A stretch of 64,000 nt of DNA from Pisaster brevispinus (lineage: Eukaryota > Echinodermata > Asteroidea > Forcipulatida > Asteriidae), in contig JAMKCF010000020.1 in NCBI GenBank assembly GCA_023634235.1, positions 3,844,001-3,908,000 on the forward strand, read 5' to 3'. Shown here in pieces: positions 7,325 to 64,000 of this stretch. A model generated the notes under the pieces. The model made no database searches. It had not been told where the DNA came from and saw only the letters and a list, made by a program, of their open reading frames with translations. Position numbers and translations under genes: made by a program. Within the stretch, counting starts at the first letter, position 1. The number at the start of each line of letters is the position of its first letter.

Positions 7325-7515
7325 ACCTATTATTTGGTTTTACCCAAACACCAATGTGTGTAAAGCACTGTATATACTCAGTACTATGCCGAGTCCTGGG
7401 AAAAAAACAACATGCATATTCAGGTGGGATTTGAACCCGCGACCTTTGCCATTCTAGAGTAGATGTCTTACCACTAGACCACTGAGATTTGCTCGGTAGC
7501 TAGAAGCACTTCAAA
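7325..7515 (-). mobile_element. tRNA-derived SINE (minus strand)
   Basis: On the minus strand there is an A-box-like TGGTCTAGTGGTAAGACATC and a B box in GGTCGCGGGTTCAAATCCC. A tail unrelated to tRNA follows with ACTGAGTATA.ACAGTGCTT and a GGGTAAAACCAAAT terminus. The same head and tail occur at 8050, 8255 and 30825, which defines a family. Downstream of the tRNA part the sequence does not fold as a tRNA 3' half, so this is a retroposon and not a tRNA gene. Confidence 0.8.
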
Positions 7516-7754: not shown

Positions 7755-10474
7755 TCAAAGTTCGTCTTTCATGATGCCGTCCCTCTTCAGTCTATCGAGT
7801 AGTTTCAACATGGCATGCTCGATGGCTCCCTGTTTACTCTTGTAATGCTTGGCCTTCTCGCTGATACCGCTGGAGATGTCCCACGCCGTCCCGTCGTAAA
7901 CCCACGGCTCCTTGAAGCTGTGAACACGACCCTTGGCCTTGTAGGAGATCACTCGGCCGGCAATTGTAACCTAGTAGAAGATGAAGTCAACTTTGGTGAT
8001 CAGTGGCAAGAATAAGCTAGGTTTGAGATCAAACTTCTTCTTTTTTTGCAAAGGTCCTGGGTTCAAATCCCACCCGAGTGTTTGCCTGTAGATTTTTTTC
8101 ACAGAGCTTGGGAAAGCACTGAGTATACAGTGCTTAAACACATCGGTGTATAAAGGGTAAAACCAAATTAAGTTCTTTATCCCCGATGCAAATATTTACA
8201 TCTATTAAATCTTTGCAGTACCTGCTGCTAAGGATTCGAACCCACCTCTAACCATCGGGCTAGCTCCGTGATCTAGTGGTAAGACATCTGTTCTAGCAAT
8301 GCAAAGGTCGTGGGTTCGAATCCCACCCGAGTGTTTGCCTGTGGGTTTTGTTCACAGAGCTTGGGAGAGCACTGAGTATACAGTGCTTAATACACATCGG
8401 TGTAAGGGTAAAACCAAATTAAATTCTTTATCCCCGATGCAATTATTAACATCCATTAGATCAAACCTTGTTGTCATAGTAGACTTGTCAAATTATTTTT
8501 TTCATGACTAAGCCCGGTCTTATTTCTAAATGTACCGGTAGTGAAAGGCATTTCAAAAGGTAGTTTATCTTAGATAGCTTCAACTTAAAGAAAGCTAATG
8601 CATTATTCTAAATGGTCTTTGCGTAAAGTGGTCTTAGCTTAGAGTGGATTTTCATCGCACTCTACAAACTGGATTGTTTTTGGGTGATGCAATAAAGCAA
8701 AAGTGAAGTCCTTGTTCGTATGAAGTAAATAATGCAGGCATGATATTCTTCCTACCTTAGTTTGATTTTTGATTTTTGGGGCCTTAAAAAAGTCAGAACA
8801 ACTGTGATTAAATAGCCTGAAAATTCTATTAAAGCCTATACTACATAAATGTACATGTTAGGTCAGCCCTTGCACTGTACACAATTTTCCAACTTTTCCA
8901 AACATCATGCCTGACAATGTCTTGTGAATTTCCTGCTTAATGTTTTCCCATGATGATGTATCCTGTTTCAATGGGATGCGAGTCACACCTTCAGCCACTC
9001 TGGTTGTGGGGGTTGGGTTTTCGTTTTTCTGTTGTACCTAGTCTGTCCTGTAGTTCCTGTACCATATGTGGCTTTCAGTCATATTCTACCACAAAGACTT
9101 TTGACTATCAGCCTGCGATTACTAAATCGTTTGATTTTGATGATTTGTTTTTGTTTAGGAACTTTTGAAAGAAAATAATCACAAGAAAGGTATGAGAACA
9201 AAGCTGCATTTAGCTGTCACAGTGGGAGGTCAGTTTTTGGGACGGTTTTGCTGTGAACCTCGACCCTGACATTTGAGCAGGGTATCAGGGTCATTTAAGT
9301 GTGTCTTACCTGTCCCTCCTCGTTAACAGCATTGTTGATGATAGCACCAACAGTCTTGATCAGCTCAGGGCTGAGGTTGAATGCACTCGACATAGGTACT
9401 GCAAATGGAATTCGGTTCAATATCATACATTATTTAATACCAACGAAAAACGTTCGACGACAAATAACCAACGAGTGTGCGAGTAGTTCAGTTCAGACTA
9501 ATAATAACAACATACTGCACATGTCCCTCCTTAAAAAATTAATCAAATTAAGATAAAGGTGCAATACAAGAAAGTACTAGCGGGCCAATGCGGTAAGTGA
9601 GAAAAACCGACCTGGAACAGGCAACAGTTAAACAAGTCTTGTATCGTTCCTCTGCTTCAAGGAACACTATGTTACGTAGGGATTCATCGCACTGCTTACC
9701 GCGATATTTTGCGCAGATACTGCCACTCTCATAGGCAAGACTGTCCCTCAGAAATTCGGTCGCCATATGGGAAATTAACATGGGCTGGAGGAGGAGGATT
9801 CACAAGAGGGTGCTAAACAGGAGTTTGTACACAGTTCGCCGTATGGGGGGACAGAATCTCCTGCCACATCGCCGTAGAATCAGGTGCATTTTTAACGACA
9901 GTTCGTGGTAAGCAAATTCTGTGGTAAGCAGTGCCATGAAATTTGGGCCTGGTGTGGTTTTGATTTTGGGTTTACATTAGCCCTGGTGGGACGTCAGTGT
10001 ATGTTGCACTACACGTTGTACGCAACGGAGCGAGTCCAACCTGGGCTAGGGTTTACATATCAACCAAACAAAGATTATGTCAATGAAGTTACTAAAATAA
10101 CTTGAAACTCCTCTCACCTGAGTAGAATCTCTGCATGCAACCGGTAATCCGCAGATTTATATTTTCAAGAACTTACTTAATTTTAAATCCAAAGTTAGTG
10201 GCCTGACGTTTCGACCCTAGCAGAGTTTTTCTCGAAAGCCTTTCTCATTTAGCCTTCGAGAAAGACTCTGCTAGGGTCGAAACGTCAGGCCACTAACTAT
10301 TTTTTTTGCATTTATTATACCATAGGTCCTTTTGGTTGGTAAGCAGTTTGCAACAGCTAATACTATTTTTCATTTAATTTTAAATCCAAAGTTTAAAATG
10401 AAATTACAAGATTTCAGAAGACTAAACCTACCTGCTGTTGTAATTATCAGTGCAAATAAAAGGCAAGCTCGCAT
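7755..10474 (-). CDS. Predicted ER-lumen protein (signal peptide and KDEL), homologous to the caspase N-terminal domain
   Basis: Three exons, joined by phase: 10474-10432 (14 codons plus 1 nt, donor GTAGGT), 9398-9310 (89 nt, donor GTAAGA) and 7970-7755 (71 codons and TGA). The product is 115 residues. It starts MRACLLFALIITTA, a good hydrophobic signal sequence, and ends GIMKDEL, the canonical ER-retention tetrapeptide. The body has a predicted helix (SPELIKTVGAIINNAV), a strand-rich part (QVTIAGRVISYK, PWVYDGTAWD) and a basic C-terminal helix (SKQGAIEHAMLKLLDRL). I do not recognise a named family. The same domain, with introns at the same two places, forms the N-terminus of the divergently transcribed caspase next door. 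The start ATG has A at -3. Exons 2 and 3 are firm. Exon 1 is chosen because it supplies a signal peptide in the right phase; a rival upstream exon at 11466-11403 also fits in phase. Intron 2 hosts two SINEs. Confidence 0.68.
8050..8210 (+). mobile_element. tRNA-derived SINE, 5'-truncated
   Basis: The copy begins just before the B box (AAAGGTCCTGGGTTCAAATC). It then carries the family tail: CCACCCGAGTGTTTGCCTGT, CACTGAGTATACAGTGCTTA, ACATCGGTGTA and GGGTAAAACCAAATTAA, ending near TTTATCCCCGATGCAA. It lies within the last intron of the minus-strand KDEL gene. Confidence 0.75.
8255..8470 (+). mobile_element. tRNA-derived SINE, near full length
   Basis: The A-box region CCGTGATCTAGTGGTAAGAC and B box GGTCGTGGGTTCGAATCCC are intact RNA polymerase III promoter elements. 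The same tail as the copy at 8050 follows, ending in TTTATCCCCGATGCAA. This is the best-preserved member in the window. A stray inverted B-box-like GGATTCGAACCCACC sits just upstream at about 8231. Confidence 0.82.
10202..10304. repeat. Inverted repeat with a GTCGAAACGTCAGGC core
   Basis: TAGTGGCCTGACGTTTCGAC followed by CCTAGCAGAG at the left is mirrored by CTCTGCTAGGGTCGAAACGT followed by CAGGCCACTA at the right. The spacer contains GCCTTCGAGAAAG-type arms. A single arm of the same family is at 20505-20563. The CGAAACGTC string resembles the hammerhead-ribozyme core carried by Penelope-like retroelements. That identity is a guess. Confidence 0.6.
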
Positions 10475-11672
10475 CTTCGATGTGTCCACTACCCTGGCAC
10501 AAGAAGTGAACTTTGACAAGATCTCGCTCCCTCGAATCAGAGTGTCTCGTAAGTTTCTTTAATGTCAGGTTTTATAGTGAGATGAGATCAAGTTCTGTCC
10601 CATCAGTGGTTTTTGCTAGTGCTTTTATATTATTCTGATGACCAGCAACACTTTCTCTGTGAACACCAGCGGCCAATCTAATCCAGTGAGTCAATCCGGG
10701 AATAACCAAGTACTATTGCGAAATTTGGGGATTTTTGGTCTTTGCTTTCTGAGAAAATAACGATTGGTTAGTTTAGGGAACTTTGACTTTACTACTGTAC
10801 ATTGACCCTTTGATTTGTTTGTAATCTATTCCTTCCTATTAAAAAGTTTCGCAACGTTAAGGTCACCATAGCTAGCTGCACCTGGGAGATTCCATAGGTT
10901 ATAACGTGGGTTGCATTTTTGTGTGATTTTTCTTTCTGCCACACATACTTTTTTTCAACCCCAAATGTGACGGATTGGAAGGATTACATTTAAAACTAAA
11001 AATGTAATAAACAAAAATACATGACGGGGCTTACCAAACGATTAATTTGTCCAGATATGATGTTTTGAAAATGACGGGGGGGGGGGGGGGCAAGTAAAAA
11101 TCGTCGCGTCAGGCACAGGGCGCCGCCATCTTTGTATTGTGAAGGTGCCCCGTTTCCGGTACCTGGGAATAGTCAACCTCCTGTGGAGGTCTTGGACTTT
11201 CCGTCTGACGTAATGGGAATCCCCGTTTCTCTACTACTATATTAGTCACCATAATACAACATTACGTGATAAACAATACTGCCAAACTTGAGTAAGTACT
11301 CTTTACGATTTATAATTATAGTGTAGAACTTGCGAAATGTTTAGACAGCTTACGAGCTAGGCCCCTACTTTTAACTTTAAAATACACAGTCATGACAGTT
11401 ACCTTTCTTCTTCGACTTCGCGGTTGCATCATTTGAGGGAACTGGGATTTGTGGGAAGGTAGAGGGCTATAATTAACATCATTAACACGGAGTGTTACAA
11501 TTTTCCAAACTGTTGCTAAACATTTTCTTTTTTGATAAATCGTATTTTTCCCAGACGTATTCTTATTACAAGTTTGTTTATATCTTCAATAAGAGCAAGC
11601 ATTCTGCCCTGTCTCCTGTACGTCCGTGTTCATGGTTTGATTGCCTTATCATGGTCTGATCGTCAGTTGCGG
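10475..11672. promoter_or_regulatory. Divergent intergenic region between the KDEL gene and the caspase gene
   Basis: About 1.2 kb separates the two start codons. It would hold both promoters and the 5' untranslated parts. It contains a run of about 18 G at about 11078, a locally CpG-richer stretch at 11100-11180 (CGTCGCGTC, GGCGCCGCC) and a possible acceptor (TTTTTCCCAG, ending at 11554) that could begin the first coding exon of the caspase. No TATA box or specific factor site is claimed. Confidence 0.4.
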
Positions 11673-14067
11673 ATGGCCTTGTCTGTTGTTGAGAACACCA
11701 GGAAACCTGGCAACACATTTTTACTATTCATCATGGCAGGTAAGTGGTAAGAAGAGCCAGTTGTACACAAATTCAACCAAAATATACCAACAATAAATAA
11801 ATTGAATAAATCCTGAATTATTTGTTAACAACCGGTGAGACTTTTCCGAGTGAGTAAGAGGTTCGGAGTGGTACTGATTTAGAATGTCGGTCACTCTGTA
11901 CCCAAGTCACTTCGTCAAGCAAGTCATATGCATATTATGGCGTACTTGGATACGATCGTGTTAGTGGAGTTGTGAGCAGAAAATATTCATTTTTTAAAGC
12001 TGAATTGTGGGTAATTTTTATTTTCTTCTTTTTTTGTTGAAAAGCTGGAAAATTCTTGAAAAGCTAGAAAAATTATTGAGTCTTGAAACAGAATAACATC
12101 AATGTCTCCGGAGAGGCTTTTTATAGACATTGGAAGGATCCATGAAGCATATATCATACATGTAATTTTGTCAACCAATCAGATTGCTCTATCACCCTAC
12201 TCTGATCATGGAGGAATTTCTTCCTCCATGCTCTGATCAAAGAGGCTTTTTATAGACATTGGAAGGATTTAGAGTATAGTTTATTGTCAACCAAAAATAT
12301 CTCTTCGGTCAAAGACGCCGCCAAATGACGTTGATTTGCTTTAATCAGGTCTATTGTCAAGACTGCCGGCAGACAATTGAGGTACGAAGTGACTTGGGTA
12401 GAAACTGACTTTGGTATGAAGCGAGTTGGGTACGAAGTGATCGACAACGCTGATTTAGACCCAGTAAAACTGGGGCATTCACTGTAGGCCTACTCCTTTT
12501 TGAAATATTTTCTAGTAGTAGTACGAATGAATATGTCAAATTTAGAAAAAAGGAAAACAACGCTCCAGTTACTGGGTCTAGTCCTGGTCTTTACATGCTT
12601 GACATACTCCAGGGCTTGAATTTGGGATTTACTACCACAAGACAACACTAAGGTCTTGTATAGCTCAAAATGTTTACCGGACCAGAATTTATTTTACAAG
12701 ACCAGAGACCTTTTCTTTATCTTAACAAGAAAGAGCTTTCTACAAAATTAAACATGTAAACTGTTTTTATTTGAACAATCAATACCCAAAGATTTATCTC
12801 ATTTGTGTTATGAGTAGGCCTAAGTATAGGACCTATAATTTTGATACTCTTGTCTTGTGGAATTTGTGTGTTTTAGTCCGAGACCAAGTCTGTGTCCTCC
12901 CCACCGAGTCCGAGTCCATGTCGGTCTGAGTCCGAGACCCTCGTGTCTTTGTAAAGTTAGCCCAGTTAGCAAGTCATTGGGTAACACACGTTCATATCTG
13001 CTGCCCGCCCCAAACAGTTTGTGACTTTTATCTTCGAAGCTTGCATACGTTTGTTTTGTGTGTGAAATTTTCACAAAAAGTCACCCATTTCATCGCTCAA
13101 AGGCTTTTCTTATGAAAGAATTGTTTATTTCTTTATATGTTAAGTTTTGTATGCATTTATTCCTTAGGTATTCTGTTTGGAAAACTCCTTGGCGCGTCTG
13201 GCAATTCGCTTGAAGATTTTGTGAGTGAAACATTCTTAACTGATGATGGACAGGTACGTTGATGTACAAAGTGTACACCCTTTGGTCAACCCCCCACCCC
13301 CCGCCCCGATCAAACTAGGTTTTCTTTTGAACTAACTAATTGCATTCAATTTCGTTTTTGTGATACACGATTTCATTCTTCTCATTTAGGTTTATTTTAG
13401 TCATTCTATTTCATAAATATGCACTCAAGACTACATGTTCTGAAGTTGAATTTCTACAACCTACATAACATGTATTTACAATTGATGAAACTGATTTGTT
13501 GACCAGCCTCCTGCTGTTGGCTTTTACAAAACTGATTGATATTTGCAACATAATGAACTTGAATAATCTTATTTGACCAGTGAAAGCTAAGCTGCTGTAA
13601 AATGGTATTACTACATGTACTTTCAACCAATGAATACTGAAGCAACGGATCATTCCTTTTCAAACGAAATTGAGTGAGCCAGGCGATAAATTGAATGAGG
13701 TTTTGTTGAAATTGGCCGGGAAAACCCATACAACAAAAAATAAACTTGAACAAAAGCAAGCAAAAATGTTTGCTTAGCAGAAATTTGTTAAGCAATAATC
13801 TTCTTATATATTGCTCTATCTATGATTAAATTGAGCCGTGACTTGATTACGCTGATAAATCGTAACTTATTATGTGGTAAACATACAGATGTTTATTTCC
13901 TAAAGGTTAGATTTGAAGGTCGCACTATTAACTACAGAGCCAGTCCCCGAAACACCGGATTTCCAATATTGTACGTTGGAAAGGCAGTCGACCAAGCCTC
14001 TGGGATCAGTGCTACCATTGGTGAAACAGAAAACTTTAAACATCCGGAAGATGCAAGTCAAAAAGCG
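11673..14067 (+). CDS. Caspase exons 1-3: hydrophobic start and shared sensor-like domain
   Basis: Residues 1-105. A polar start with R10 and K11 is followed by the hydrophobic run TFLLFIMAGILFG, usable as a signal peptide or signal anchor. Residues 23-120 align with the KDEL protein. Landmarks are DDGQVRFEGRTINYRAS against EEGQVTIAGRVISYKAK, then SGIS, and later a helix A..KAVSKLLGVLRERG (completed in exon 4) against AIEHAMLKLLDRLKRDG. Exon 2 enters in phase 1 and leaves in phase 0, as does the matching exon of the KDEL gene (86 against 89 nt). The helix-strands-helix order is visible. No named fold is claimed. Confidence 0.75.
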
Positions 14068-17000
14068 GTAATTAGTTTTTAGGGTTTTTTTTCACAGATT
14101 TTTTCTAGGGGGAAACAATTTGAAAAAAGGATAACAAACAAAAACAAATTTAAAAAGTTGTTAAGCTTAGAGAAAATGAATGTTGACATGGGCCCACTAA
14201 CACAAAGATTCCCCGAATGTAAGGAACATGCAAGTCAAAAAACAGTAATTAGTACCATGTTTATTTTCCAAGGATTTTTTTCTGGTAAAAAAGAAAAGAA
14301 AAAGGAAATAACAAAGAGTAATAACATGCATGTGTGAAAGAAAAAAACAAACACACCAAAAACAAAAACAACAATTAAGCTTACAGTGTTGACATGCTGG
14401 GCACTAAAAACACTGTACTCCAAATGTCCAAAGTGAATCTTATTTCGTTTAAATGAGCGAATTCTTATGAACGACCTTTCCAGATGGTAGACCTTCAGGG
14501 ATGCCAGGTCACAGGGTGGCAGCGATTTTACAGAGTAACTGTTCTCGGAAATGAGCACAAATTAATAACAATGTTAACAATGTACCTTTCCCCCTAGCGT
14601 CTAAATAAGAATCTACCTTTATAGAAATGCTGAATCACCAAACTTGTTGTTGTATTGATCTTCAAGGTCATTTTGATATTTTTCTTCTATTTCCTTGGAT
14701 TCTAAAGGTTTCAAAATTACTAGGTGTTCTTCGGGAAAGAGGATTGGTCATTGACCAGGTTCAGAAAACATTACCGGAGTCGTCTCCCACGAAACCTGTA
14801 CCGCTGGAACCGGAACCGAAAGGGCCCGAGCCACAGCCGACTCAGCGGCCAATAGAAGATGGACACGATTCCAAATCCGTGAATAATCCTCCGTTGTCTG
14901 AACCAGGCTGCGAAAGAGCGCAAGATAAGAAGGAGAATGAGGAGGATCTTGAGGAACCGCATTTGGAGCTTGAACAGGGATCGAACCAAGAACCTGTGCC
15001 AGGCAACAGTTGCAGTAATAATGAAGGGGAGGAAGCTCACCTGGCAGACAATCAAAGTTCTGATGAGCTGGAGAAAGATCAGGGGTTCCTTGCCAATCAT
15101 GCAGGTATGCACTCGTAGTCTCTGCAAAAACATTGCAATCAAAGAACTTGCCATCTATTTTAATTGTTTATTAAAAAATATTGAGCACATATGAAATGTA
15201 CATGGTGTGTTTGTTTGGGTTACACACCTACGTTCCGACACCTATGTTCCGACACCCCTACGTTCGGACACACCTATGTTCCGAAATTCATATGTTCTTA
15301 CACCCATATGTTCTGAAACCCGTATATTCCAACACCCGTTTGCTCCTACACCCATATGTTCCAACACCCCTATGTTCCGACATACCCTATGTTCCAACAC
15401 CCCTATGTTCCAACACCCTTATGTTTCTGACACCCCTATGTTCTGAAACCACTATGTTCCGACACCCCTATGTTCCAACACACTTATGTTCTGACACCCC
15501 TATGTTCCAACACCCCTATGTTCTGACACCCCTATGTTCTGACACCCCTATGTTCCGACACCCCTATGTTCCAACACCCTTATGTTCTGACACCCCTATG
15601 TTCCGACACCCCCATGTTCTGACACCCCTATGTTCCAACACCCCTATGTTCTGACACCCCTATGTTCTGACACCCCTATGTTCCAACACCCCTATGTTCT
15701 GACTCCCCTATGTTCTGACACCCCTATGTTCCAACACCCTTATGTTCCAACACCCCTATGTTCTGACACCCCTATGTTCCGACACCCCTATGTTCCGACA
15801 CCCCCATGTTCTGACACCCCTATGTTCCAACACCCCTATGTTCTGACACCCCTAAGTTCCGACACCCCTATGTTCCAACACCCCTATGTTCCAACACCCC
15901 TATGTTCCAACACCCCTATGTTCCGACACCCCTATGTTCCAACATCCATATGTTCCAACACCCCTATGTTCTGACACCCCTATGTTCCGACACCCCTATG
16001 TTCCAACACCCCTATGTTCCGACACCCCTATGTTCCAACATCCATATGTTCCAACACCCCTATGTTCTGACACCCCTATGTTCCGACACCCCTATGTTCC
16101 GACACCCCTATGTTCCAACATCCATATGTTCCAACACCCCTATGTTCTGACACCCCTATGTTCCGACACCCCTATGTTCCAACACCCCTATGTTCCGACA
16201 CCCCTATGTTCCAACATCCATATGTTCCGACACCCCTATGTTCTGACACCCCTATGTTCCGACACCCCTATGTTCCGACACCCCTATGTTCCAACATCCA
16301 TATGTTCCGACACCCCTATGTTCCAACACCAATGGTCTGCCACCCATGTTCCAACACCCCTTGTGTTTTTTCCTAATACTGTTAACCCAACCCTAATCCT
16401 AACACTAGGGGAACCCTTAAGTTGCACAAACATAAGAGTATCAGACTATAGTACAGTCACCGTTTGTTTGTCTGGTTGATAGTCTTCTTAACAAGGGAAT
16501 TCGGCAAAACTCCCACAGGGGATATAAACGCCAAGCTGGCAACAACCAATCTCTCTCATACATGTCATATACACAAACATTAGTTTAACGTCTATGATTA
16601 TGGATTGCACAAATCAATAAATTTTGATTCAGTAAAGCCCGGTTCATACTTCCTGCGAACGCGAATGCGAAGCGAATATTGACGTCACAAATTCGCAACG
16701 AATAATTCGCAGCAGTTGAAATGTGCTCAACTCCTGCAAAACATTCGCTGCGAAAACGGCCCTGTGACGTCAAAATTCGCTTTGCATTCGCATTCGCAGG
16801 AAGTATGAACCGGGCTTAACTAGAAGACAAGAGCCAGAACGACGTGCATAAAAAAGAAAAGAAAAATTGTGTCCAGTATGGCCTTTTTATTTAACTTTAC
16901 TATCTAGGCATTCTCAAACATGTATTGAATTTCAATTATTCTACTTAGGTTGGTGGTCTATGCACACATTGATGACTGTGTCTGCAGCAATCATCGTTGC

Positions 17001-20000
17001 CTCAGTTTCGTGTTATTTTTTAGACAGATGTCAAGTAAGTGGGTTTTTTTTAATGAAAATAAATGCCTTGGTCAAGGCCAGGAACTAGTTTAAAACATTG
17101 TTGACGGTTCCTGCATTGCCTAAACCATGTTTTTTTAAGTGAACCCTTTTTCACAGTTGCGTTACGTGAAAGCTCCATTAAAAAAAGTGGCTGGAATAAA
17201 ACATCCTTTTCATCTGACAACTCACACCTGTTACTCCATGTAATTCCTTTTCCAAAGAGCGGTCTTAATATTGGATCATCCACAAACTGCCCCAGGCAGA
17301 TTAACTGCTCATCCTTTTAAGTTTAATGACCCAAGTAATTCAATGTAAACACACCTACTGGTGAAAAGGATGCATATAAAAAAATAGTCTAGCATTTGGC
17401 CAGTGGACATCTGTCAAGAGAGAACACTGACTAACCTGATTTGTGTGGTACCGTGTCACTTAGTGTCACATACACTGTAGTCTCCAGTTGGCCCATAACA
17501 ACGAGAGCCGACTGTGGTCACAGTAATAATCATTGCTTTCATTTCCACAGCTCTTGCCAGGCAGCATCTCCATGGTGTTATCAGCCGTCCTCAGTATACC
17601 TGTAGCCTATACATTTGGGACCTACAAGATTCTTGGTGTATTGTTTGATACTCTTTCAAAGGTACGTTAATAATTATCAGAAGTACTCCATTCATTGACT
17701 TTCCGTGGATAGTTGTTACTTATTGTCACTTGGGCCCAATTTCATAAAGCTGTTAAGCAGAAATTTCTTTACTTCGCAAGAAATGAGCAGGATTTTTCTG
17801 TGCTTAGTAAGTTTTTGTGCTTATACAGGCTTTATGAAATTTGGCCCTGGTGTTTTTACAAAGTGTATTTTTTTACTATTTAGCATGTTTAGAAATAAAT
17901 ATTTGATCAGTTGAACTGTATGGGGCGCTTGTATTAGAACTTAGCAACAGCAGACCTGTGCCCAATTTCAGAGAGCTGCTTAAGCAGCAAATATTGCTCA
18001 ACAGTTTTCTGCTTAGCATTTAATGAGCAGGATACATGTCACAAATGGCACATGATGAGTGGTATGGCTGGTTTCCCTATTCTTGTAAGCATAATTTTGT
18101 GCTTAGCTACTTTGTGTGCTCTAAGCGGCTCGATGAAATTGCGGACACTGAGCCCAAAGTCATGAACCTGCTTGCGTGCAAAAAGGTAGCTCTGCACAAA
18201 ATATGAAATTGGGCCCAGGTTCTTGTTCAGGATGTAGCGATGCATGATGGGACTGACACTACCGCTCACCAGCAAAGTGCACACAATCACAACACGCGGT
18301 ATTGCACGTGTGTTGTCGTCATTTGAATCACATGAACACTGCAAATTATTATTTGATGTTGCCATCAAGACCCGATTGTTACTTGAATTAGGGAAGTTGA
18401 ATACAAACCTTAAACAATTGATCTGTTGTCCAGATACATCAAATTATTGTGGCATTGGTGGAATTTTGTAAACAGGAAGAAGTGAGTATTACTTGTTAGA
18501 TGCAGAATAGAGTACTTGATAAAGACCAATAACTGAGGTATGATGTTTCCAATAGCTTACAGTTTCCCATTTTTTCCTGATAGGCTATACAGAAAGCAAT
18601 TAATGTCACTCTAAAGCTGTCCAAATCATTTTCAAATCTTCCAGGAGTTCTGCGGCCAAGTAAGTTAATTATTCTGTTAAGATTATAAAGAAGCATATCA
18701 ATCTGTTTATGGCCCAAACCACTCCTATTTATTTTAATCAGTTTTACTGCATTTTGTGCATTGTGCGATTGTAACAAATTGTAATACATTGGCATGCGCG
18801 TGCTAGCTCTCACAGGATTACTTTGTGGAAAGGGATTATGGACTGTGCGTTGTAGCATACACGAGCAATGCATACCTTTGGCGATTATCTTCTTTGATGT
18901 TAAAAGTATGATCCTTAACAATGATGGCAGACTACGGCAGTGGCAAGAGCAGCAGTTTCGCGGGAGCCTGCAGTCGCACGATTACAGGAGCAATATCACA
19001 GAGACTTTTTATACACTTGCGTGAGTTTCCAAAACTAAACTTACAGAACGCTAGAAAAATCTGGAGTAACAAGTTATGTTTCTAGCAATTTTCATTCATT
19101 GAAAAAACGTAGCCCCGCCTCTTGGGGGTCAAATTCTCTTTTCGCTTACATTTGACATAATACTGTTGATGTTGCCTACATAAAGTATTATTCAATGCAT
19201 GCAGTTTGCGGTAGCACCATGTGTATGTATCTAATTTGCTGCGTAGATTTTTTTTTGAGAACTTGTCTGCTGTTTGTTCTACTGCCGCGGAGTAGACTTA
19301 GGAATTCAGGAGACTACTTGGTTCTGAAAAAAACTGTCCTCATAACGGGAAAGCTCCATTAAAGAGTTTCCGAGTTTTGCCACAAAAACTCGGAATCTAT
19401 TCATCCTTTTAACCAGTGGGTGTGTTTACATTGAATTACTTGGGTCATTAAACTGAATGGATGGAGCATTTAGTCTGCCTTGGGCAGTCAACAGCACTAC
19501 TAGTTTGTGCATGATCCAATTAAGTCCTCTGTTTGGAAAAGGAATCATATGGAGGTTGTCAGATGAAAAGGATGTTTCATTCTAGCCTCTTTCTTTGATA
19601 GGGCTCTCCCGTAATGTGCTTATTAACTTCTACCTTCCACCTTTTCTAGTCATCATCAGGAGATCTATATACACATGGTCTTAACTCAAACTGAATATCA
19701 TCGTGTCAGTGCAAAAACATTGTAACTCAAATTTTGCTAAATGTCATACCTCGCAGGGAAATGGTCCGTGCAAAAAGGTCATATTTGGGCGCGCACTTGT
19801 TTTGTGTGTACATCCAGGCTATTTTAACAGAGATTCAATGTTTAGTAATCAAACTCTGGCACAACCCGTAAAAGTGCTATTTTAGGACATACAACATTTT
19901 TGCACTGACACAATGATTGATACCTTACCATACAATGCCTTAAAACTCATAGAGTTGTTTTCCTTTTTGGACACTCTAGTTGGTACTGTTTTTGAGGTTG

Positions 20001-21207
20001 TTCCTGATTACAAAGGATCGTATGCTGCATATGTGATGAAGAAATCACATCCCACACCTGACATGCTGGCACGGAAATATGTGAGAAGTTAACCTTTCTT
20101 TTGAGTTTGCTCAGAGCTAGAGTAAAAGAGTCTTGTTGTCACATTTTGGCCGGAGCTTGTGCCTGTCTTTTAGCTTAATTAGATAGAGGACCAGCAGCCG
20201 ATTTCACGAAACGCCAGGATTAATCCTATCTCGAGTTAGGACGAGTGGCTAGTCCTAACTTGGGATTAATCTTAAGGTTTACATGTTACAGTGCAAGGCT
20301 GGGACTCGTCCTAAGTACTAAGATTAATCCTAAGTTAGGAAGAGTTTGGTGAAATCGACAGCTGCCCCTTCCCCCAGTTGCCCCCTTTTTGTTACCCTCT
20401 CTGTTCATTCCCCTGCTCTTTCTCTGTGCTTTAATCTCTATCATCTGTTTCCACTTGACTGCTTTTGTTACACCAGTATACCTGTTTATGTTTGTAGTGT
20501 TGTCATTTAGCCTTTCGAGAAAGACACTGCTAGGGTTGAAACGTCAGGCCACTAACTGTTTTTTTGTCATAAGACAGAGTGCAGAAGCAAATTGTTAATC
20601 CTTTTGGTGAAGGATTAGGATCAATGTTACAACCTCTTGCCCACTGTAGGTCTGTAGCCAACTTCAGTCCTTTCTGCAGATATTTTTGTGGTAAATGTGC
20701 CACCAGTGTGTGCAACCTGGTTCCTTCTATGAGGTATAAGTACGTGAACGGAAAATACCAATGAATGGACAACCATATCTCATAATTTACTATTCAATAA
20801 TTACTTTTTGTAGTGACACATCAAGGAATGGTGCACCTATAATTGAGTTGACCAGTGCGTAGATTCCCTCTTTGAAAAATTACACATTCCGCATTATTTT
20901 ATTTTACATATCATTTGTGTTTGGTAGGCAGTTGCAACACTTGTTTGTTTTAGGGTCTTTTTCTAGATCTGCCATAATTCATGATAAAATTGTTTGCATT
21001 GGGAGACTTTGGTAAGCTAGGTTGCAGCAGACTTACCAAGTTATTCATTGTTTACGTAGTTCTAAGCATGATGCGCACATTACCGAGAACAATAGATTTA
21101 CCTGGTAAGTCTGCTGCCACCTAGAGTTCCCAAAGTCCCCCATCGATATGTGCCCTGTAATATTTTACAGGCACTTTGAGCCATTTTGTAGTAATATGGG
21201 CCCTCTT

Positions 21208-21288
<81 letters not shown>

Positions 21289-24200
21289 TTGTGACACCAA
21301 TTTAGTTTTTAAAATAATCAGTGGAGGATTGGAAAGGGCAGACTTTTAAATTGTTTTGTGTTTAAATGTTAAATACAATGTATTCTAGACTTTCGACTTG
21401 AATTTGCATGAAGGGCGAGTCAACGTTATTATAATTTTATTTCAACTGTTGTATAAAAAACGACTTTTTGTGTTAAAAAAACAAAAACCCAGAACTACCA
21501 GCTGATGTCGACTTGTAAAGGGATTGCCTTCATTCTGAACAACTTTGATTTTGAAAGCAGCAAGCGACTAGGTTCCGAAATCGACCTCAACAACGTCAAA
21601 CACCTGTTTCGCGAGCTGGGGTATAGGAATGTCGTCCATGAAAATCTTACTGGAAAGGTAGGTCAAGTTGAAAGAGGGCGCAAAATCCGTCAAGAGAGGG
21701 AGCACTTCATGGCGTAAAGCCAGAGCTGTGTGTTGACAGAGTTGTGTCAACTTGCATTTAGAAGCTGTACCCAGTCCCCCCAAAATGCATGTGCGCACAC
21801 AGGGTGCCAACCTTGACTGCAAATTGAGTTATGCTACATTTGGACTGAAAATGGCGCCCAGCTATGTGACTGAAGAAAGATAGTCCCTCCATGTTGGAGG
21901 TCTCTCAAAACACAGCTCTGCGTAAAGTCCCGGCGGATGCCATCTTGGAAGAGCCAAAGATCATTCTACCGTACAATTTCTTTTATTCACAATTCCACTA
22001 TCTTTGTTAGTGCGGCGTCCTACTGTATGAACCCCTAAAAAGGGGAAGTAAAGAAAGAGTTGGAACAATGGCTTTTAAGTAAGTGTATTTTTGGGCACCC
22101 TGCTCATACAGAAATGGGAGTTCTTAACTGGGTACACAGGGAATAAGGTATCGAAGAATCCTTTGGCGTTAATGAAGAGTTACCCGCACCCATGCTCTAA
22201 ATGGTTAGCTGAGCATACGACTGGGCCCAATTTCAAAGAGCTGCTTAAGCAGAAAATAATGCTTAACAATTTCCTGCTAAGCAGAAATGAGCAGGATACC
22301 AGTCATAAATTGTACACGTGACATGGTAGTTTGCCTGGTAACCTTGTTCTGGTAAGCAAAATTTTAATGTGCTTAGCAAATTTTTGTGCTTAAGCAGCTC
22401 TATGAAATTGTGCCCTGGTTTCGACAATTAGTGCACCCCTGAAACAAATCACAAGATCATGGTGTACTATTGGTTCCATTTTTGCAAGGTTAAGGTTGCG
22501 GTCTGGCCTGATTAAACTAAGAGTCTGCTATAATAATCTACTAAATTAAGAAAATTGCCCTTCTGTTTTACTGTTCCAGAAAATTGTGGAGTCCTTTCGA
22601 CTCTTTGCTGCTATGTTTGAGGAAACCTCTTACGACTCTGCCGTGGTTGTCTTGATGAGCCATGGCGATACCGGGGTGATTCTGGGCACCGACCGCGTTG
22701 AGGTCAAGCTCCGAGACCTGGAGAGGGAACTGGAAGGGGACAAGTGTCCCGGACTGAACGGCAAGCCCAAGATGTACTTTGTACAAGCATGTCGAGGAGG
22801 TGGGTCAATTCGTTAACGATTTTGAAGAACGTGCTTCCAATATGTAACCTATAGTAATTATATGGGCAGTGTTGTCATTGATTACTTTTTTATCAAGTAT
22901 GAAGTAGCTAAGTACTAGAGTGGCTGAGTACTACTTGAGTTTGAGTACTTGGTCCTCCAAATCAAATAATCAAATGAGGTTTCAAAGTTTCAACAATCAG
23001 TAGCAGCCTGCAACATACATCGATGAGTATAAGTATTGTCCTCAATTTAGTTAATCAATTTAGTGAATCACTTAAGTCGATATTGCCTTTATGCACCTCC
23101 ATCAGGCAAGGGGGAAATTTCATTCAACTAGTGTCAGAAATGGGAACCTGTGTTAGTGTGTTCATTTGATGCATCATATCGGTGATAGCTGTTTAGTGTT
23201 AGTATTAGTACGTACACTGATCGCGGTTTAAACACAGGCAACAACCTTCTCAAAATATCACACTAGAACTTGAATATTATTCTTCAGATTCTCCAATATT
23301 TGTAGGCCTACCCGTTGTTGCCGATGGGCCATCCTCAACGATAACCCCGGGGGAAGAGTGGGCCACCAGGTCTCTGGAATGTGTACCAGATAATGATTTT
23401 GCAAAGCACACAGCAGACAGAGCGGATGTGCACATTGCTTTTGCCACAACAGAAGGTTGGTTTCATGTTTCCCTCTGAGCACTTGTGTATGAATATAATA
23501 ACAACAAAATCTAACAATGCTGAATGCAGGTATGGTAAAAAAGACTCATAACTTCGTTGAAAAAAATAAACCATTCCTACTTGATATACTCCTCAGTAGA
23601 AGGTTGGGTTTTGAGTGCAAGATATCGAGTACTTGCTTTCACTCGAGTAGAACTAGTAGCCGAGCATGCTAAGTTTTACTCCAATACTGCCATTGAATCA
23701 TGAAGAACTTCGGTATTAGATGGAACATTAATATAATATAACACACTAGTCAATTCATGTCATTTGATTGGAGGATTGGAGGTCACGTGACATTCATTGT
23801 TAGCACCATTTCATGGCTCGTCACTGAGTGTGCATTTTTGCTATATACAGCGTGCATTTCTGGTACTATCTTTTTGAACTGTTGTACGCTATTACATGCG
23901 TCATACACAGCCGTATATCCCTCTAACAGCCGTCTAACGTGTTCGCTAGACTACAGCATTATGCACGCGCCCGTGCTGTACACAGCAGCTTACAGGCTCT
24001 TGTTTTGTTGCACTGGAATTAGCAGAATAAGCCTACATTCGTAAATGTTGTTTTTAACTCCAAATGACAAAGTTTTACTTGATGGATGTTGTATAAAACA
24101 AACAATAAATGTTTTGCATCTGCCTCGTTGAATGGAACAAACCATCTTTCAGCTTATAAAAATATTCTCACCATTGCACTCATAAACATTCATTATTTGT

Positions 24201-26315
24201 ATAATAGCTTCCTTGTTTACTGTTTATAGGTCACTTGTCATTGAGAAGTGAAGTGATTGGTTCCTTCTTTGTTCAAGCTATGTGTGAGGCGTTCTTCGCC
24301 AACGCCCATCAAGACAATTTGGATACACTTATGAACAAGGTAAACCTATATAATCAGATGTTACCTTATGCCTTAACTGTTATTCCAACCCCATTTCTTA
24401 CTTGCATTAGGTTCTGCTTCCTTCATTGCGTTACTGACAGACTGCTTAACCCTTCCCTATTCTTGTTCTGGGAATTCACAGGACAGTGTGCCACCAACTA
24501 TTTTCCCAAGATGGGTCTTTTCAACCATGCAGAAAAGTCACAGTGCACGTTCAAATATCACCTTCAAATTTGAGTTTTGGTCATGGAAAAGCATATCCGT
24601 AGGCCTAAATCATCACCCACACACCCATTATCAAGTTCAAGTTCACATTTTTGGTGCAGGTGAACTGAGTCTCACTGTGTGTTTGCAAATAATGTGGACA
24701 TTTGTGTATCTTGTGTGCCCAGTTCGAATTAATGGTTGTAGCAGTGACTATGGCCAGAGCGCTGAAAAAAAAATGCATTCTTCAGTCGCTCGACTTGGAC
24801 ATGACCTGTGTAAAAAACAGTGTTGGAGGTCTCGAGGCCGGCCTCGGCCTCGAGGCCGACTTTGGACGGCCTTGGTCTCGGCCTCGGCCTCCCTTTGTCA
24901 TGACTCGGTCTTGGCCTTGGCCTCGGCACCTTCTGGCCTCGAAGAATAAGCCGAGGCCGGTTCGAGGCCGCCAGTTTCTACTCAAATTTCCCACCATTTA
25001 CTTTTTAAAAAAAATTATCTCGAGAAAAAATACAATTACTGAAGCGGACTCCTGAGGTTTCGCGGAATGAAATTGCGCATACTTTACGAGCGCAAAAGAC
25101 ACAACTAACGTGCACAACCGGACCCCAAAGATTGCAGATTTGAAATAGACTGGCTCCTGCTCATTACCGGCATTACCGAAAGTAATGACGCGGCATAGAA
25201 ACCAGCCCAATGTATTTAGATACGAATGCTTTGGAAACCCTTTTGTTTTTAAAGTGTAATGAACATGTACTTTGAGGAGTGAAGATACAGTACTGGTTAA
25301 ATACATAATACAATCTATGATTTGGAATGTTAAAGAGACACGTTGCCTTCGGATTGGGCGATTTGAGCTATAAAAGCGTTTGTTATGAAATGGATGTGGT
25401 TGGAAAGATCTTTTAAAATTAGAATATAATGATCAGACTGATAATGATCCAAACAAATATGCCTCAAAATTGTGTGGTTTTCCTTTTACTTCGTGAACTA
25501 TTAAACACAGTTTGCCATTTTGTGGAGTCAAAGATTTGGTCTCACAAAATGGCGGGCCGTGTTAGTCCACGAAGTAAAAGGAAAAATCACACAATTTTGA
25601 GGCATATTTTGTTTACATCATTAAATTCTACTTCTAAAATATCTTTCCGACCATATTTCATATCACAAAAAACACCTTTTACATCACAAAACTGCCCAAA
25701 TTGCCCAATCCAAGGCAAGGTGTCCCTACATGTAAACGCTCGCAGTTTGTCAATCTCATTGTACCTTCATGGTGAAATAATAAAACCGTTTCAAAGTAGC
25801 ACCTTTGCGTAAACGTTTGCTTTTTTTCTACTCGTATGTGTGTGCATAATATTATAATAATTTAACTGGCCTTGGCCTCGGCCTTGGCCTCGGACACTGT
25901 GGCCTTGGCCTTGGCCTCGGCCTCGAGTGCTGTGACTCGGTCTTGGCCTCGGCCTTGCAGACCCATGACTCGGACTCGGCCTTGGCCTCGAAGGTCATGG
26001 ACTCGACTACAACACTGGTAAAAAATAGCCTCCCCGTGCAAACTGTGGGTAGCACTCTAGGTTTTGAATTCCACAAATTGCCATACTTTAGGTTCCCCAA
26101 TGCTGGAACCTATTTAGTTCCTCATTTCTTAATCCTGTTTCATTCCTCTTTCCATTTTTTTTCTGCAGGTTGCTTACAGAGTAGACCTCATGAAAGGGAA
26201 ACTGTTTGACCATGCAACCCAAAAATGGATCAATGTGAAGCAGACTCCGGAATGTATCAAACGGGGCATGCGAAAGTCTCTCTACTTCCTCCCTAAATAC
26301 ACCACAGAAAAGTGA
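11673..26315 (+). CDS. Caspase with a membrane-associated N-terminal half
   Basis: Thirteen exons join without a phase conflict: 11673-11739, 13168-13253, 13906-14067, 14708-15104, 16949-17034, 17551-17661, 18584-18659, 19980-20080, 21493-21657, 22580-22799, 23288-23455, 24230-24339 and 26169-26315. The product is 631 residues. Residues 363-631 are a full caspase: S1 arginine R387 (SSKRLGSEID), catalytic H445 (LMSHGDTG), catalytic C488 (VQACRGG) and p10 S-x-R arginine R552. Caspases are aspartate-specific cysteine proteases made as zymogens. The N-terminal 362 residues contain a hydrophobic start (15-27), the domain shared with the neighbouring KDEL gene, an acidic linker and two hydrophobic segments (about 243-261 and 272-298). 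I see no CARD or DED. The start ATG sits in GCGGATGG; the frame is open upstream, so a longer N-terminus is possible. Six consecutive compatible junctions link the membrane half to the protease half. Confidence 0.82.
14708..15104 (+). CDS. Caspase exon 4: end of shared domain and acidic linker
   Basis: Residues 106-237. The first 20 residues finish the C-terminal helix of the shared domain (VSKLLGVLRERGLVIDQVQK). The rest is low-complexity, rich in Pro, Glu, Asp, Ser and Asn (PLEPEPKGPEPQP, EDLEEPHLELEQ, SDELEKDQG) and has two cysteines. It looks like an extended spacer between the N-terminal domain and the membrane segments. The exon ends in phase 1 (GCA G, donor GTATGC). The following intron contains the 16-bp minisatellite at 15225-16350. 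Confidence 0.78.
15225..16350. repeat. Minisatellite, 16-bp unit, with higher-order structure
   Basis: A tandem array of TTCCGACACCCCTATG-type 16-mers with CCAACA, CTGACA and CCGACA variants occupies over 1.1 kb of caspase intron 4. In the right half a diverged unit containing CATCCATATG recurs at 15943, 16039, 16119, 16215 and 16295, that is at 96, 80, 96 and 80 bp. The open frames here are repeat artefacts. Confidence 0.95.
16628..16822. mobile_element. Palindromic MITE (AAGCCCGGTTCATACTTCC ends)
   Basis: AAGCCCGGTTCATACTTCC then TGCGAA at the left is mirrored by TTCGCAGGAAGTATGAACC then GGGCTT at the right. The inverted repeats reach about 60 bp inward through GAATGCGAAGCGAAT. Length is about 190 bp and there is no coding capacity. 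It sits in caspase intron 4, just before the first membrane exon. Confidence 0.8.
16949..17661 (+). CDS. Caspase exons 5-6: two hydrophobic, likely membrane segments
   Basis: Residues 238-303. Exon 5 encodes WWSMHTLMTV then SAAIIVASVSCYFLDRC. Exon 6 encodes LPGSISMVLSAVLSIPVAYT and then FGTYKILGVLF. The loop between them is only about ten residues, so they form either a tight membrane hairpin or one spanning and one reentrant segment. The sequence after segment 2 (TLSKAIQKAI, KLSKS) is basic, which favours the cytosol by the positive-inside rule. Two full spans would put the caspase on the same side as the N-terminal domain, so topology is unresolved. Both exons start and end at good splice sites (ACTTAG, CAAGTAAGT, TTCCACAG, AAGGTACGT). 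Confidence 0.75.
17150..17385 (-). mobile_element. DNA element, ACGGGAAAGCTCCATTAAAG family, inverted copy
   Basis: One end reads GTTACGTGAAAGCTCCATTA. The body (CATCCTTTTCATCTGACAAC, TTTAATGACCCAAGTAATTC) is the reverse complement of 19410-19590. The second inverted end is not seen, so this copy is truncated. It lies in caspase intron 5. Confidence 0.65.
17731..17849. mobile_element. Short MITE of the GGGCCCAATTTCATAGAGC family
   Basis: Ends GGGCCCAATTTCATAAAGCT and GCTTTATGAAATTTGGCCC enclose only about 120 bp, so the centre is deleted relative to the 190-bp members. It lies in caspase intron 6. Confidence 0.7.
17958..18215. mobile_element. MITE of the GGGCCCAATTTCATAGAGC family with a duplicated end
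   Basis: It begins GCCCAATTTCAGAGAGCTGC and reaches a right end GCGGCTCGATGAAATTG at about 18125-18141. An extra end, ATGAAATTGGGCCC, follows at about 18202-18215, suggesting nested or partial insertion. The internal blocks match the family. Confidence 0.62.
18584..20080 (+). CDS. Caspase exons 7-8: juxtamembrane connector
   Basis: Residues 304-362. Exon 7 gives a basic amphipathic stretch (AIQKAINVTLKLSKSFSNL). Exon 8 gives VFEVVPDYKGSYAAYVMKKS and then HPTPDMLARKY, leading straight into the caspase start in exon 9 (NYQLMSTCKG). The exon 8 donor is ATATGTGAGA. Aspartates here (DYKG, PTPD) are candidate sites for removal of the prodomain, but none is proven. Confidence 0.68.
19350..19620 (+). 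mobile_element. DNA element, ACGGGAAAGCTCCATTAAAG family, full copy
   Basis: Left end CATAACGGGAAAGCTCCATT and right end AGGGCTCTCCCGTAATG are imperfect inverted repeats. The body is shared in opposite orientation with 17150-17385. It lies in caspase intron 7. Confidence 0.68.
20192..20362. mobile_element. MITE with GATTTCACGAAACGCC / TTTGGTGAAATCG ends
   Basis: Terminal GCCGATTTCACGAAACGCC and AGTTTGGTGAAATCGAC are inverted. The interior is built from repeated AGGATTAATCC and CTAAGTTAGGA/CCTAACT motifs that pair with each other. About 170 bp, in caspase intron 8. Confidence 0.7.
20505..20563. repeat. Single arm of the GTTGAAACGTCAGGC family
   Basis: GCCTTTCGAGAAAGACACTG then CTAGGGTTGAAACGTCAGGC and CACTAACTG match the right arm of the inverted repeat at 10202-10304 over about 55 bp. 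Confidence 0.6.
21000..21141. mobile_element. Small MITE (GGGAGACTTTGG ends)
   Basis: GGGAGACTTTGGTAAGCTAG then GTTGCAGCAGACTTACCA is mirrored by TGGTAAGTCTGCTGCCACCT then AGAGTTCCCAAAGTCCCC. Total about 140 bp, with no coding capacity, in caspase intron 8. Confidence 0.7.
21201..21288. repeat. CT microsatellite
   Basis: An almost pure (CT)n run of about 88 bp is interrupted by regularly placed CTTT units. It lies about 200 bp upstream of the first protease exon of the caspase. Confidence 0.95.
21493..22799 (+). CDS. Caspase exons 9-10: large (p20) subunit with catalytic dyad
   Basis: Residues 363-490. Exon 9 carries the first strand (KGIAFILNNFDF), the S1 arginine in KRLGSEIDLNNVKHLF and the ELGYRNVVHENLT block. 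Exon 10 carries VVVLMSHGDTG with the catalytic histidine and MYFVQACRGG with the catalytic cysteine in the canonical QACRG pentapeptide. All residues needed for catalysis in this subunit are present. Splice borders are AAACCCAG/GGTAGGT and GTTCCAG/GGTGGGT. Confidence 0.95.
22222..22420. mobile_element. MITE of the GGGCCCAATTTCATAGAGC family, good copy
   Basis: GGGCCCAATTTCAAAGAGCT and AGCAGCTCTATGAAATTGTG then CCC end the element. Internal ACCAGTCATAAATTG, GGTAACC and TGTGCTTAGCA blocks match the copies at 5568 and 6505. It lies in caspase intron 9. Confidence 0.75.
23288..26315 (+). CDS. Caspase exons 11-13: intersubunit linker and small (p10) subunit
   Basis: Residues 491-631. Exon 11 holds the linker, with candidate processing aspartates in CVPDNDFAKHTADRADV, followed by the start of p10 (HIAFATTEG). 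Exon 12 gives HLSLRSEVIGSFFVQAMCEA; the Ser-x-Arg is kept but the usual Trp of S-W-R is Leu. Exon 13 ends with MRKSLYFLPKYTTEK and TGA, as p10 subunits usually end. The exon 11 donor reads GAAGGTTGGT, weaker than the others. The intron before exon 13 contains a MITE and two GGCCTC-rich repeats. Confidence 0.93.
24828..24975. repeat. Degenerate hexamer repeat (GGCCTC type)
   Basis: A run built from GGCCTC, GGCCTT and GAGGCC units with TGACTCGG interruptions lies in caspase intron 12. It gives Arg/Pro-rich chance frames on both strands. It is related to 25866-25990 and more distantly to the GACTCG-type runs at 12870-12950 and 30400-30545. Confidence 0.8.
25315..25718. mobile_element. MITE (GACACGTTGCCTTCGGATTG ends)
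   Basis: GACACGTTGCCTTCGGATTG then GGCGATTT at the left is mirrored by AATTGCCCAATCCAAGGCAA then GGTGTCC at the right. The middle contains a second nested palindrome: TGCCTCAAAATTGTGTGG and TTTTACTTCGTG against CACGAAGTAAAA and CACAATTTTGAGGCA. About 400 bp, in caspase intron 12. Confidence 0.78.
25866..25990. repeat. Degenerate hexamer repeat (GGCCTC type), second block
   Basis: CTTGGCCTCGGCCTTGGCCT-type units grade into GACTCGGACTCGGCCTTGG, tying the GGCCTC and GACTCG variants into one repeat family. It ends about 180 bp before the last caspase exon. Confidence 0.8.
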
Positions 26316-63304: not shown

Positions 63305-64000
63305 CTACCTTCGCCTGAAGAAGCAAAGCAGTGATAGCATCTGTGCTTTGTAATGAACGTTAGTTGAAGCGTAAAGGAATGGGTTAATTGCTGAGTTTGC
63401 AAACAGTAGATATGACATTGACCACAGCAAGTCAAAGCTGACATAGTCTCCACCATTGAGGGCATTAAGAAATATAATGATAAACCACGGGAACCAGCAT
63501 ATGACAAATGCCCCCGTCATCAGTCCAAGCATGATGGCTGACTTGCGGTAGGCTTGTGGACCGGGCTGCCTCGGTGAGGCAATGCCGTTTTGGGTCTGCT
63601 GACGAAGGCTTTCGTCATTCCTGTCAACATTCGATGTTGTCTTGTCCCTCGCGCTGTTTTTCCTGCATTCGATTGATATTGTCCCTGATTCAGTACGTTG
63701 ACGCTGCAGCAGCGTCTTTCGGATCTTGACGAACACCATTACGTTGAACGTTGCAAGCAACCCAGCGGGAAGGACAAACTCAAAGGTGAACGTTATGAAG
63801 GCATACGGTATTGAGTAGATCCCTTCCGACTCGCAGGTGGTCGAGTAGTTCACCTGGTGCTTCCCGGAAAACGCCTCCCACCCAATATCGAATACAGACA
63901 CAAAGGTATATGTGGCCAAAATCGTACCAGCTATGACAGCTAGTGCCCGCTTCTTCGACTGGTTGTGGATGTAAACCAACGGGGCTCTCACCCACAAATA
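63305..64000 (-). CDS. Class A G-protein-coupled receptor, C-terminal part (TM4-TM7)
   Basis: A single open exon runs in from the window edge and stops at 63305. In order it has ICL2 (YLWVRAPLVYIHNQSKKRA), TM4, an extracellular loop 2 with one cysteine (STTCESEG), TM5 (FITFTFEFVLPAGLLATFNV), a third intracellular loop of about 80 polar residues, TM6 with FVICWFPWFII (C-W-x-P motif) and TM7 with NSAINPFLY (N-P-x-x-Y). A short tail ends SLLCFFRRR. The first codon in the window is Tyr, which fits the Y of a D-R-Y motif just outside. The layout resembles amine-type receptors, but the binding residues of TM3 are outside the window and no ligand is proposed. TM1-TM3 are missing only because the window ends. 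Confidence 0.9.
   Translation of the reverse strand, partial: YLWVRAPLVYIHNQSKKRALAVIAGTILATYTFVSVFDIGWEAFSGKHQVNYSTTCESEGIYSIPYAFITFTFEFVLPAGLLATFNVMVFVKIRKTLLQRQRTESGTISIECRKNSARDKTTSNVDRNDESLRQQTQNGIASPRQPGPQAYRKSAIMLGLMTGAFVICWFPWFIIIFLNALNGGDYVSFDLLWSMSYLLFANSAINPFLYASTNVHYKAQMLSLLCFFRRR

Follow-up and report, generated by a model that had tools for sequence, protein, structure and literature searches.

Two divergent genes in the genome of the starfish Pisaster brevispinus, one for a caspase and one for a small protein, raise the question of why they share a domain and what the two products may have to do with each other. They lie in a stretch of 64,000 nucleotides (bases 3844001-3908000 of contig JAMKCF010000020.1, assembly GCA_023634235.1; genome 549.7 Mb), which we call the window and whose positions, counted from its first base, are used throughout. 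A preliminary description of this DNA held that the minus-strand gene encodes a free copy of the caspase N-terminal domain and acts as a soluble partner, decoy or ligand-like regulator. Our analysis confirmed the observation and supported the interpretation in part. Of greater interest is how the caspase itself is built: hydrophobic, membrane-like segments, which the preliminary description had overlooked, lie between the shared domain, an anti-lipopolysaccharide factor (ALF)-like one, and the protease.

The caspase gene (plus strand, 11673-26315, 13 exons, 625 amino acids) and the free ALF-like gene (minus strand, 7755-10474, three exons, 115 amino acids) are arranged head-to-head, with 1.2 kb (10475-11672) between their divergent start codons; a promoter scan of this intergenic stretch used a bacterial-type model and was uninformative. 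The caspase gene is longer than the interval first assigned to the pair, 7755-14770, and reaches 26315. Alignment of the minus-strand protein with the caspase N-terminus gave a local score of 105 against a shuffle mean of 23.8 (standard deviation 4.1), a score that none of 2000 shuffles reached, and a profile comparison of the two domains with hhalign, in which 12 free copies were set against four starfish caspase copies, gave a probability of 98.9 and an E-value of 2.3e-17 over 81 columns. Shuffle tests on eight domain pairs gave 0 of 2000 in seven, the remaining pair being the window's caspase copy and the Lytechinus N-terminus (1424 of 2000). The exon structure is as previously stated for both genes, with a first exon ending in phase 1, a second exon of 89 nt (free gene) or 86 nt (caspase) ending in phase 0, and a G-Q|V junction; the first exon is hydrophobic in both, and in the caspase the hydrophobic stretch (residues 16-34) extends on into exon 2. 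Because sequence, profile match, and intron positions and phases agree, the minus-strand protein and the caspase N-terminal domain are homologous, and the common ancestry proposed earlier is upheld.

The domain had been called unnamed, which was wrong, since comparison of sequences and structural modelling identify it as ALF-like. Free copies also occur in corals and a sea urchin and carry the name ALF-like in two corals, the homologue model of the free copy has the ALF fold of helices packed on a four-stranded sheet, and the N-terminus is hydrophobic by hydropathy and may be a leader peptide such as ALFs have. For the caspase copy, the model of the Asterias amurensis homologue (P0026) contains the four strands and the last helix (residues 41-110; predicted local distance difference test scores of 84-96 by block) and a poor first helix (residues 30-34), from an alignment that included free ALF rows. 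A fold search with the whole P0026 model returned caspase-domain rows only, and an ALF-like fold of the caspase copy is putative. Matches to the ALF family PF11630 were found in five of the 11 members of the set examined, with neither window protein among them, and the best score, 24.0 bits (coral P0014; A. planci P0003 scored 13.7), lies below the gathering score of 25 bits. The two ALF cysteines that flank the central hairpin are missing: 10 of 12 sequences have no cysteine in the domain, and the echinoid caspase copies have one and three. In the PDB, queries by sequence with the free copy, with two profiles and with a coral copy matched at chance level only, and Pfam on the first pieces gave nothing except ThiN (E 0.17).

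The caspase gene model joins this domain to the protease in a single reading frame. Exon 1 (11673-11739), which starts at the ATG at 11673 or at a later in-frame ATG, as far as can be inferred, encodes a hydrophobic leader with an IMAG...LFG stretch common to P0026. The end of the leader and the first ALF-like helix lie on exon 2 (13168-13253), the strands of the domain on exon 3 (13906-14067), which begins with V, and the last helix on exon 4 (14708-15104), where an acidic linker follows. Exon 5 (16949-17034; hydropathy 1.93) encodes a first predicted transmembrane helix and exon 6 (17551-17661; hydropathy 1.87) a second hydrophobic segment, which the P0026 model renders with low confidence as a helix of 25 residues (237-261) and a short helix (271-283). 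Past the putative membrane region come a lysine-rich segment on exon 7 (18584-18659), confirmed by its match to P0026, and a pre-caspase segment (FEVVPDYKGSY...) on exon 8 (19980-20080), which was revealed by P0026 and also matches P0027. The p20 subunit starts on exon 9 (21493-21657) and continues on exon 10 (22580-22799), which holds the catalytic His (MSHGD) and Cys (QACRG) and matches PF00656 with 55.9 bits; exon 11 (23306-23455) carries the inter-subunit linker with VVAD and the p10 start, followed by p10 on exon 12 (24230-24339; RSEVIGSFFVQA) and its end with the stop codon on exon 13 (26169-26315). The presence of this domain with His and Cys places the protein among the caspases (PF00656, peptidase family C14). 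Pfam found no CARD, DED or other death-fold domain in the starfish fusion caspases P0026, P0027 and P0030. It is very unlikely that gene prediction has here strung together ALF-like exons and a caspase that are separate genes: the model is read from the genome and introns of up to about 1.9 kb separate its exons, but one frame runs through all 13 exons, all 12 introns are GT-AG, and the fusion recurs in three other starfish records and an echinoid version, all of them gene models. Within intron 4, a 16-base unit is repeated about 69 times as a minisatellite (15222-16330).

The same architecture was found, at the level of gene models, in Asterias amurensis, Patiria and Acanthaster. A protein search with the N-terminal part (E up to 1, 5010 candidates) had P0026 as its sole match, a protein of 631 amino acids that is 75% identical to our first window model; it missed P0027 and P0030, both the same fusion, so that little follows when a protein is not on its list. 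With the caspase part of P0026 as query, 14 proteins were recovered among 1363 candidates, P0026 included, and five of these (P0026, P0027, P0028, P0030 and P0033) contain an ALF-like part similar to the free copy (0 of 300 shuffles). In both Patiria LOC119724777 and Acanthaster LOC110978261 a leader is followed by the ALF-like domain, an acidic linker, the hydrophobic segments and the caspase. The sea urchin version differs in its parts: Lytechinus P0033 begins with a partial ALF-like domain, after which come a Sushi repeat that scores just below the cut-off (20.6 of 20.7 bits), a stalk rich in Thr, a single hydrophobic segment, the motif VFRHRRKK and the caspase, and shuffling supports the similarity of its N-terminus to the free copy (0 of 2000 and 0 of 300). 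Diadema P0028 reads caspase, ALF-like part, a cysteine-rich stretch that is Sushi-like by eye and unmatched in Pfam, and then another caspase; no hydrophobic segment was detected in it, and it is perhaps two genes merged by prediction. A paralogous caspase in the P. brevispinus genome (L013, L014; contig C16) has similar spacing of its catalytic exons and no ALF-like match in 35 kb at E up to 0.05. Another relative of the starfish caspase, P0032 of Amphiura filiformis, combines a caspase with DBB and ZU5 domains and a weak ankyrin match, and has no ALF-like part.

The free gene is simpler. Its exon 1 (10432-10474, minus strand, 43 nt) encodes a hydrophobic leader (MRACLLFALIITTA; hydropathy 1.96 over residues 3-21), exon 2 (9310-9398) the first helix, which corresponds to residues 25-37 in the A. 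planci homologue model, and exon 3 (7755-7970, 216 nt with the stop codon) the four strands and last helix, placed by the same model, and a C-terminal KDEL, so that the whole protein reads MRACLLFALIITTAV...GIMKDEL. The named records closest to it come from the starfish Asterias rubens, Acanthaster planci and Patiria miniata. When the genome of the window was queried with the free protein, only its own two larger exons matched, exon 3 among them; this search also missed the caspase's own copy, so that divergent copies may exist elsewhere in the genome. A second free ALF-like gene adjoins the first by LOC number in Acanthaster (P0007) and Patiria (P0011), and no separate match to a second copy was found within the window. 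Two tRNA-like (short interspersed nuclear element-like) stretches were seen by eye at 8260-8340 and 7420-7490, one of which, with GTGGGTTCGAATCCCACCC, lies in the second intron of the free gene, and a similar one on the opposite strand beside the gene.

Which of the two genes gave the domain to the other can be approached through rate and distribution. Among the window, Acanthaster and Patiria, the free copy is 81-88% identical, as against 58-65% in the catalytic part and 45-71% in the domain copy of the caspase; at the sequence level the free copy is slow-evolving. Because free copies occur in corals and evolve slowly, it is more likely that a caspase captured an ALF-like gene, and the direction implied by the words "free copy of the caspase domain" is probably to be reversed. 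The ALF tree, from a short alignment, leaves eight of 16 inner branches open, joins the four starfish caspase copies in one clade (100/99) and gives the two echinoid copies long branches. In the caspase tree one group (87/88) unites the echinoid and starfish forms with proteins lacking the domain, one from Amphiura and two from Patiria, so that one early fusion with losses and two fusions are both possible. In Patiria and Acanthaster the LOC numbers of free gene and caspase differ by no more than three, and the contigs recorded for the two have the same length (18124431 and 1714110), from which the linkage of caspase and free copy is likely old. The expected conservation of the gene pair in relatives is thereby borne out indirectly, as neighbourhood; order and strand lie outside that evidence. 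We give nearly even chances to the simpler account in which the free gene encodes a plain antimicrobial or house-keeping ALF-like protein, adjacency marks the site of capture, and the two products never meet. The free copies in corals and sea urchin, their ALF-like name in two corals and their very slow evolution agree with this account, and exon capture alone explains the shared introns, but the apparently kept linkage in Patiria and Acanthaster speaks for more than a capture site, as do the opposite charges of the two domains in starfish.

These charges are marked. Five of six free copies examined are basic, with an isoelectric point (pI) of 9.2-9.6 (the second Acanthaster copy, P0007, has 5.26), and the caspase copies are acidic in all four starfish (pI 5.0-5.3) and basic in the two echinoids; in the window itself the values are 9.2 for the free copy and 5.0 for the caspase copy. 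By charge only, lipopolysaccharide (LPS) binding would be favoured for the window's free copy (net +3) over its caspase copy (net -3). A C-terminal KDEL is a retention signal of the endoplasmic reticulum (ER), and among nine selected free copies six end in KDEL, whereas the A. rubens copy ends in KEEL, the second one of Patiria in KDEI and that of Montipora in RAEL. Leader and KDEL together suggest that in echinoderms the free copy resides in the ER lumen. A secreted protein competing as soluble decoy or ligand for whatever the caspase binds, as first proposed, would fit the hydrophobic leader, the shared domain and the head-to-head genes, but the KDEL or KEEL of seven of the nine copies suggests retention and the slow evolution is unlike an arms race, and we regard a decoy as improbable. 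Given the opposite charges and the KDEL, a binding partner in the ER lumen seems at least as plausible, and the basic free copy would be an obvious candidate partner of the acidic ectodomain. The proteins P0001-P0007 (starfish, sea urchin and two further sources) end in KDEL or KEEL, which is unexpected for a supposed antimicrobial protein.

Where the caspase lies relative to the membrane depends on segments and leaders called by hydropathy. A hydrophobic leader is present in all four starfish proteins, and beyond it the window's protein and that of A. amurensis have two segments, those of Patiria and Acanthaster three and that of Lytechinus one; P0026 has two extra weak peaks within the caspase domain, and its model places helices of 25, 13 and 29 residues in the membrane region with low confidence. 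In the four starfish proteins the part that precedes the first segment carries a net charge of -15 to -26, in Lytechinus one of +10. After the last segment the net charge is +2 to +12 in all five, as expected for a cytosolic caspase; the number of segments varies from one to three, and the proposed topology of a single-chain receptor caspase, with the ectodomain outside and the caspase inside, is tentative. It is unlikely, in our judgement, that the leader is no signal, the two segments form a hairpin and ALF-like domain and caspase are both cytosolic. Caspases need a reducing cytosol, and two segments, as in the window and A. amurensis, would place both ends on one side; lipid could then be sensed as by the CARD of mammalian caspase-4/5/11, which binds LPS according to the available part of PMC11117641. 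Such a hairpin does not sit well with a leader found in four of four starfish proteins and on the same exon as in the free gene, with the three segments of the Patiria and Acanthaster proteins, or with a Sushi repeat and Thr-rich stalk before the single segment in Lytechinus.

On balance we lean towards reading the plus-strand gene as a membrane-anchored, receptor-type caspase, with the free, ancestral-type gene encoding a possible partner in the ER lumen. Leader, ALF-like domain and acidic stalk would be outside or lumenal, followed by the membrane segments and, in the cytosol, the caspase with its catalytic His and Cys intact. The ectodomains would be clustered by a lipid, of microbes or of membranes, or else by a partner protein, whereupon the cytosolic caspases could meet, dimerise and undergo self-processing at the linker Asp, which is conserved (VVAD here). 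Cleavage of a death effector would then lead to coelomocyte death, perhaps through caspase-cleaved MLKL: in a sea cucumber without gasdermins, MLKL is reported to be cut by a caspase at LVAD with lytic coelomocyte death (PMC11932488, in the portion available). The minus-strand gene would represent the ancestral-type form and the source of the caspase's first exons, and its basic product may bind or cap the acidic ectodomain in the ER lumen.

Several results count against this receptor model. Its weakest point is topology, because a cleaved leader and two full crossings would put the caspase outside the cytosol; an even number of crossings would then contradict the model, so that one segment should not cross or the topology should be a different one. 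Nine of the 14 caspases show no ALF-like part (129-280 of 300 shuffles), and P0029 and P0031, which are close relatives from Patiria, belong to these nine. The Lytechinus N-terminus hardly resembles the caspase copies, as the shuffle test against the window's copy showed (against that of Acanthaster, five of 300), and its ectodomain is not acidic, so that the charge flip would be confined to starfish. There the caspase copies are acidic, unlike the cationic ALFs that bind LPS, and are without the ALF cysteines. The acidity of the starfish ectodomain makes plain LPS binding less likely and speaks for a protein partner. The putative retention signal is also less uniform when all 25 matches of the free-protein search are counted, with six KDEL, two KEEL and 17 neither, many of the 17 short or unnamed. 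The full proposal, a new echinoderm immune receptor in which one membrane-spanning chain unites an endotoxin-binding-type ectodomain with its own cytosolic caspase, dimerises without an adaptor when ligand binds outside and has a head-to-head encoded chaperone or cap in the ER lumen, is put forward as a tentative idea. If true, it would mean a direct receptor protease and offer a testable model for the path from coelomocyte sensing to lytic death.

Elsewhere the window contains a short-period satellite, open in several frames (1-950), part of a rhodopsin-family G-protein-coupled receptor on the minus strand (63308-64000; PF00001, 64.5 bits) and, on the plus strand at 36907-60598, a four-copy tandem array with a spacing of 6.7-7.6 kb, 300-nt blocks that are 61-99% alike and repeated open reading frames, four of which were tested and gave no Pfam match at E up to 0.01.

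Our search of open-access papers for a transmembrane, receptor or membrane-anchored caspase, or a caspase with an ALF, found none among the matches listed. In the parts available, the term transmembrane does not occur in the sea cucumber AjCASPX paper (PMC11121444) or the amphioxus caspase paper (PMC3196919), and in the Acropora paper (PMC4715348) it occurs only for Bcl-2 proteins and in abbreviation lists. Animal caspases are described, in the sections at hand of PMC11117641 and PMC5877582, as reaching microbial signals through death-fold prodomains and adaptors or as binding LPS directly, which oyster caspases do with their catalytic domain (PMC5877582). With the non-canonical inflammasome of caspase-4/5/11 our protein would share an N-terminal domain of an LPS-binding kind and a caspase in one chain; it differs in an ALF-like domain instead of a CARD, in membrane-like segments and in an acidic ectodomain, and LPS binding would be analogical only. 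The system of death receptors, FADD and caspase-8 likewise couples extracellular sensing to caspase clustering, by analogy, whereas here sensor and caspase would form one polypeptide without the death folds. The sea cucumber AjCASPX1/2 are also echinoderm caspases, but have a CARD prodomain; AjCASPX2 is reported to bind LPS (PMC11121444, as far as available). CARD-only proteins offer the parallel of a free copy of a caspase prodomain beside the caspase; the fold is different, since the free copy models as an alpha-beta domain and not as a CARD, and the compartment probably is too. ALFs themselves (PF11630; shrimp ALFPm3, 2job) have the paired cysteines that are absent here, and the domain of our proteins scores below the Pfam cut-off, ends in KDEL in the free copy and is fused to a caspase. 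ALFs appear exclusive to marine chelicerates and crustaceans in the available text of a 2018 paper (PMC6213531), and the domain described here, found in echinoderms and corals, would extend the ALF-like fold beyond those two groups.
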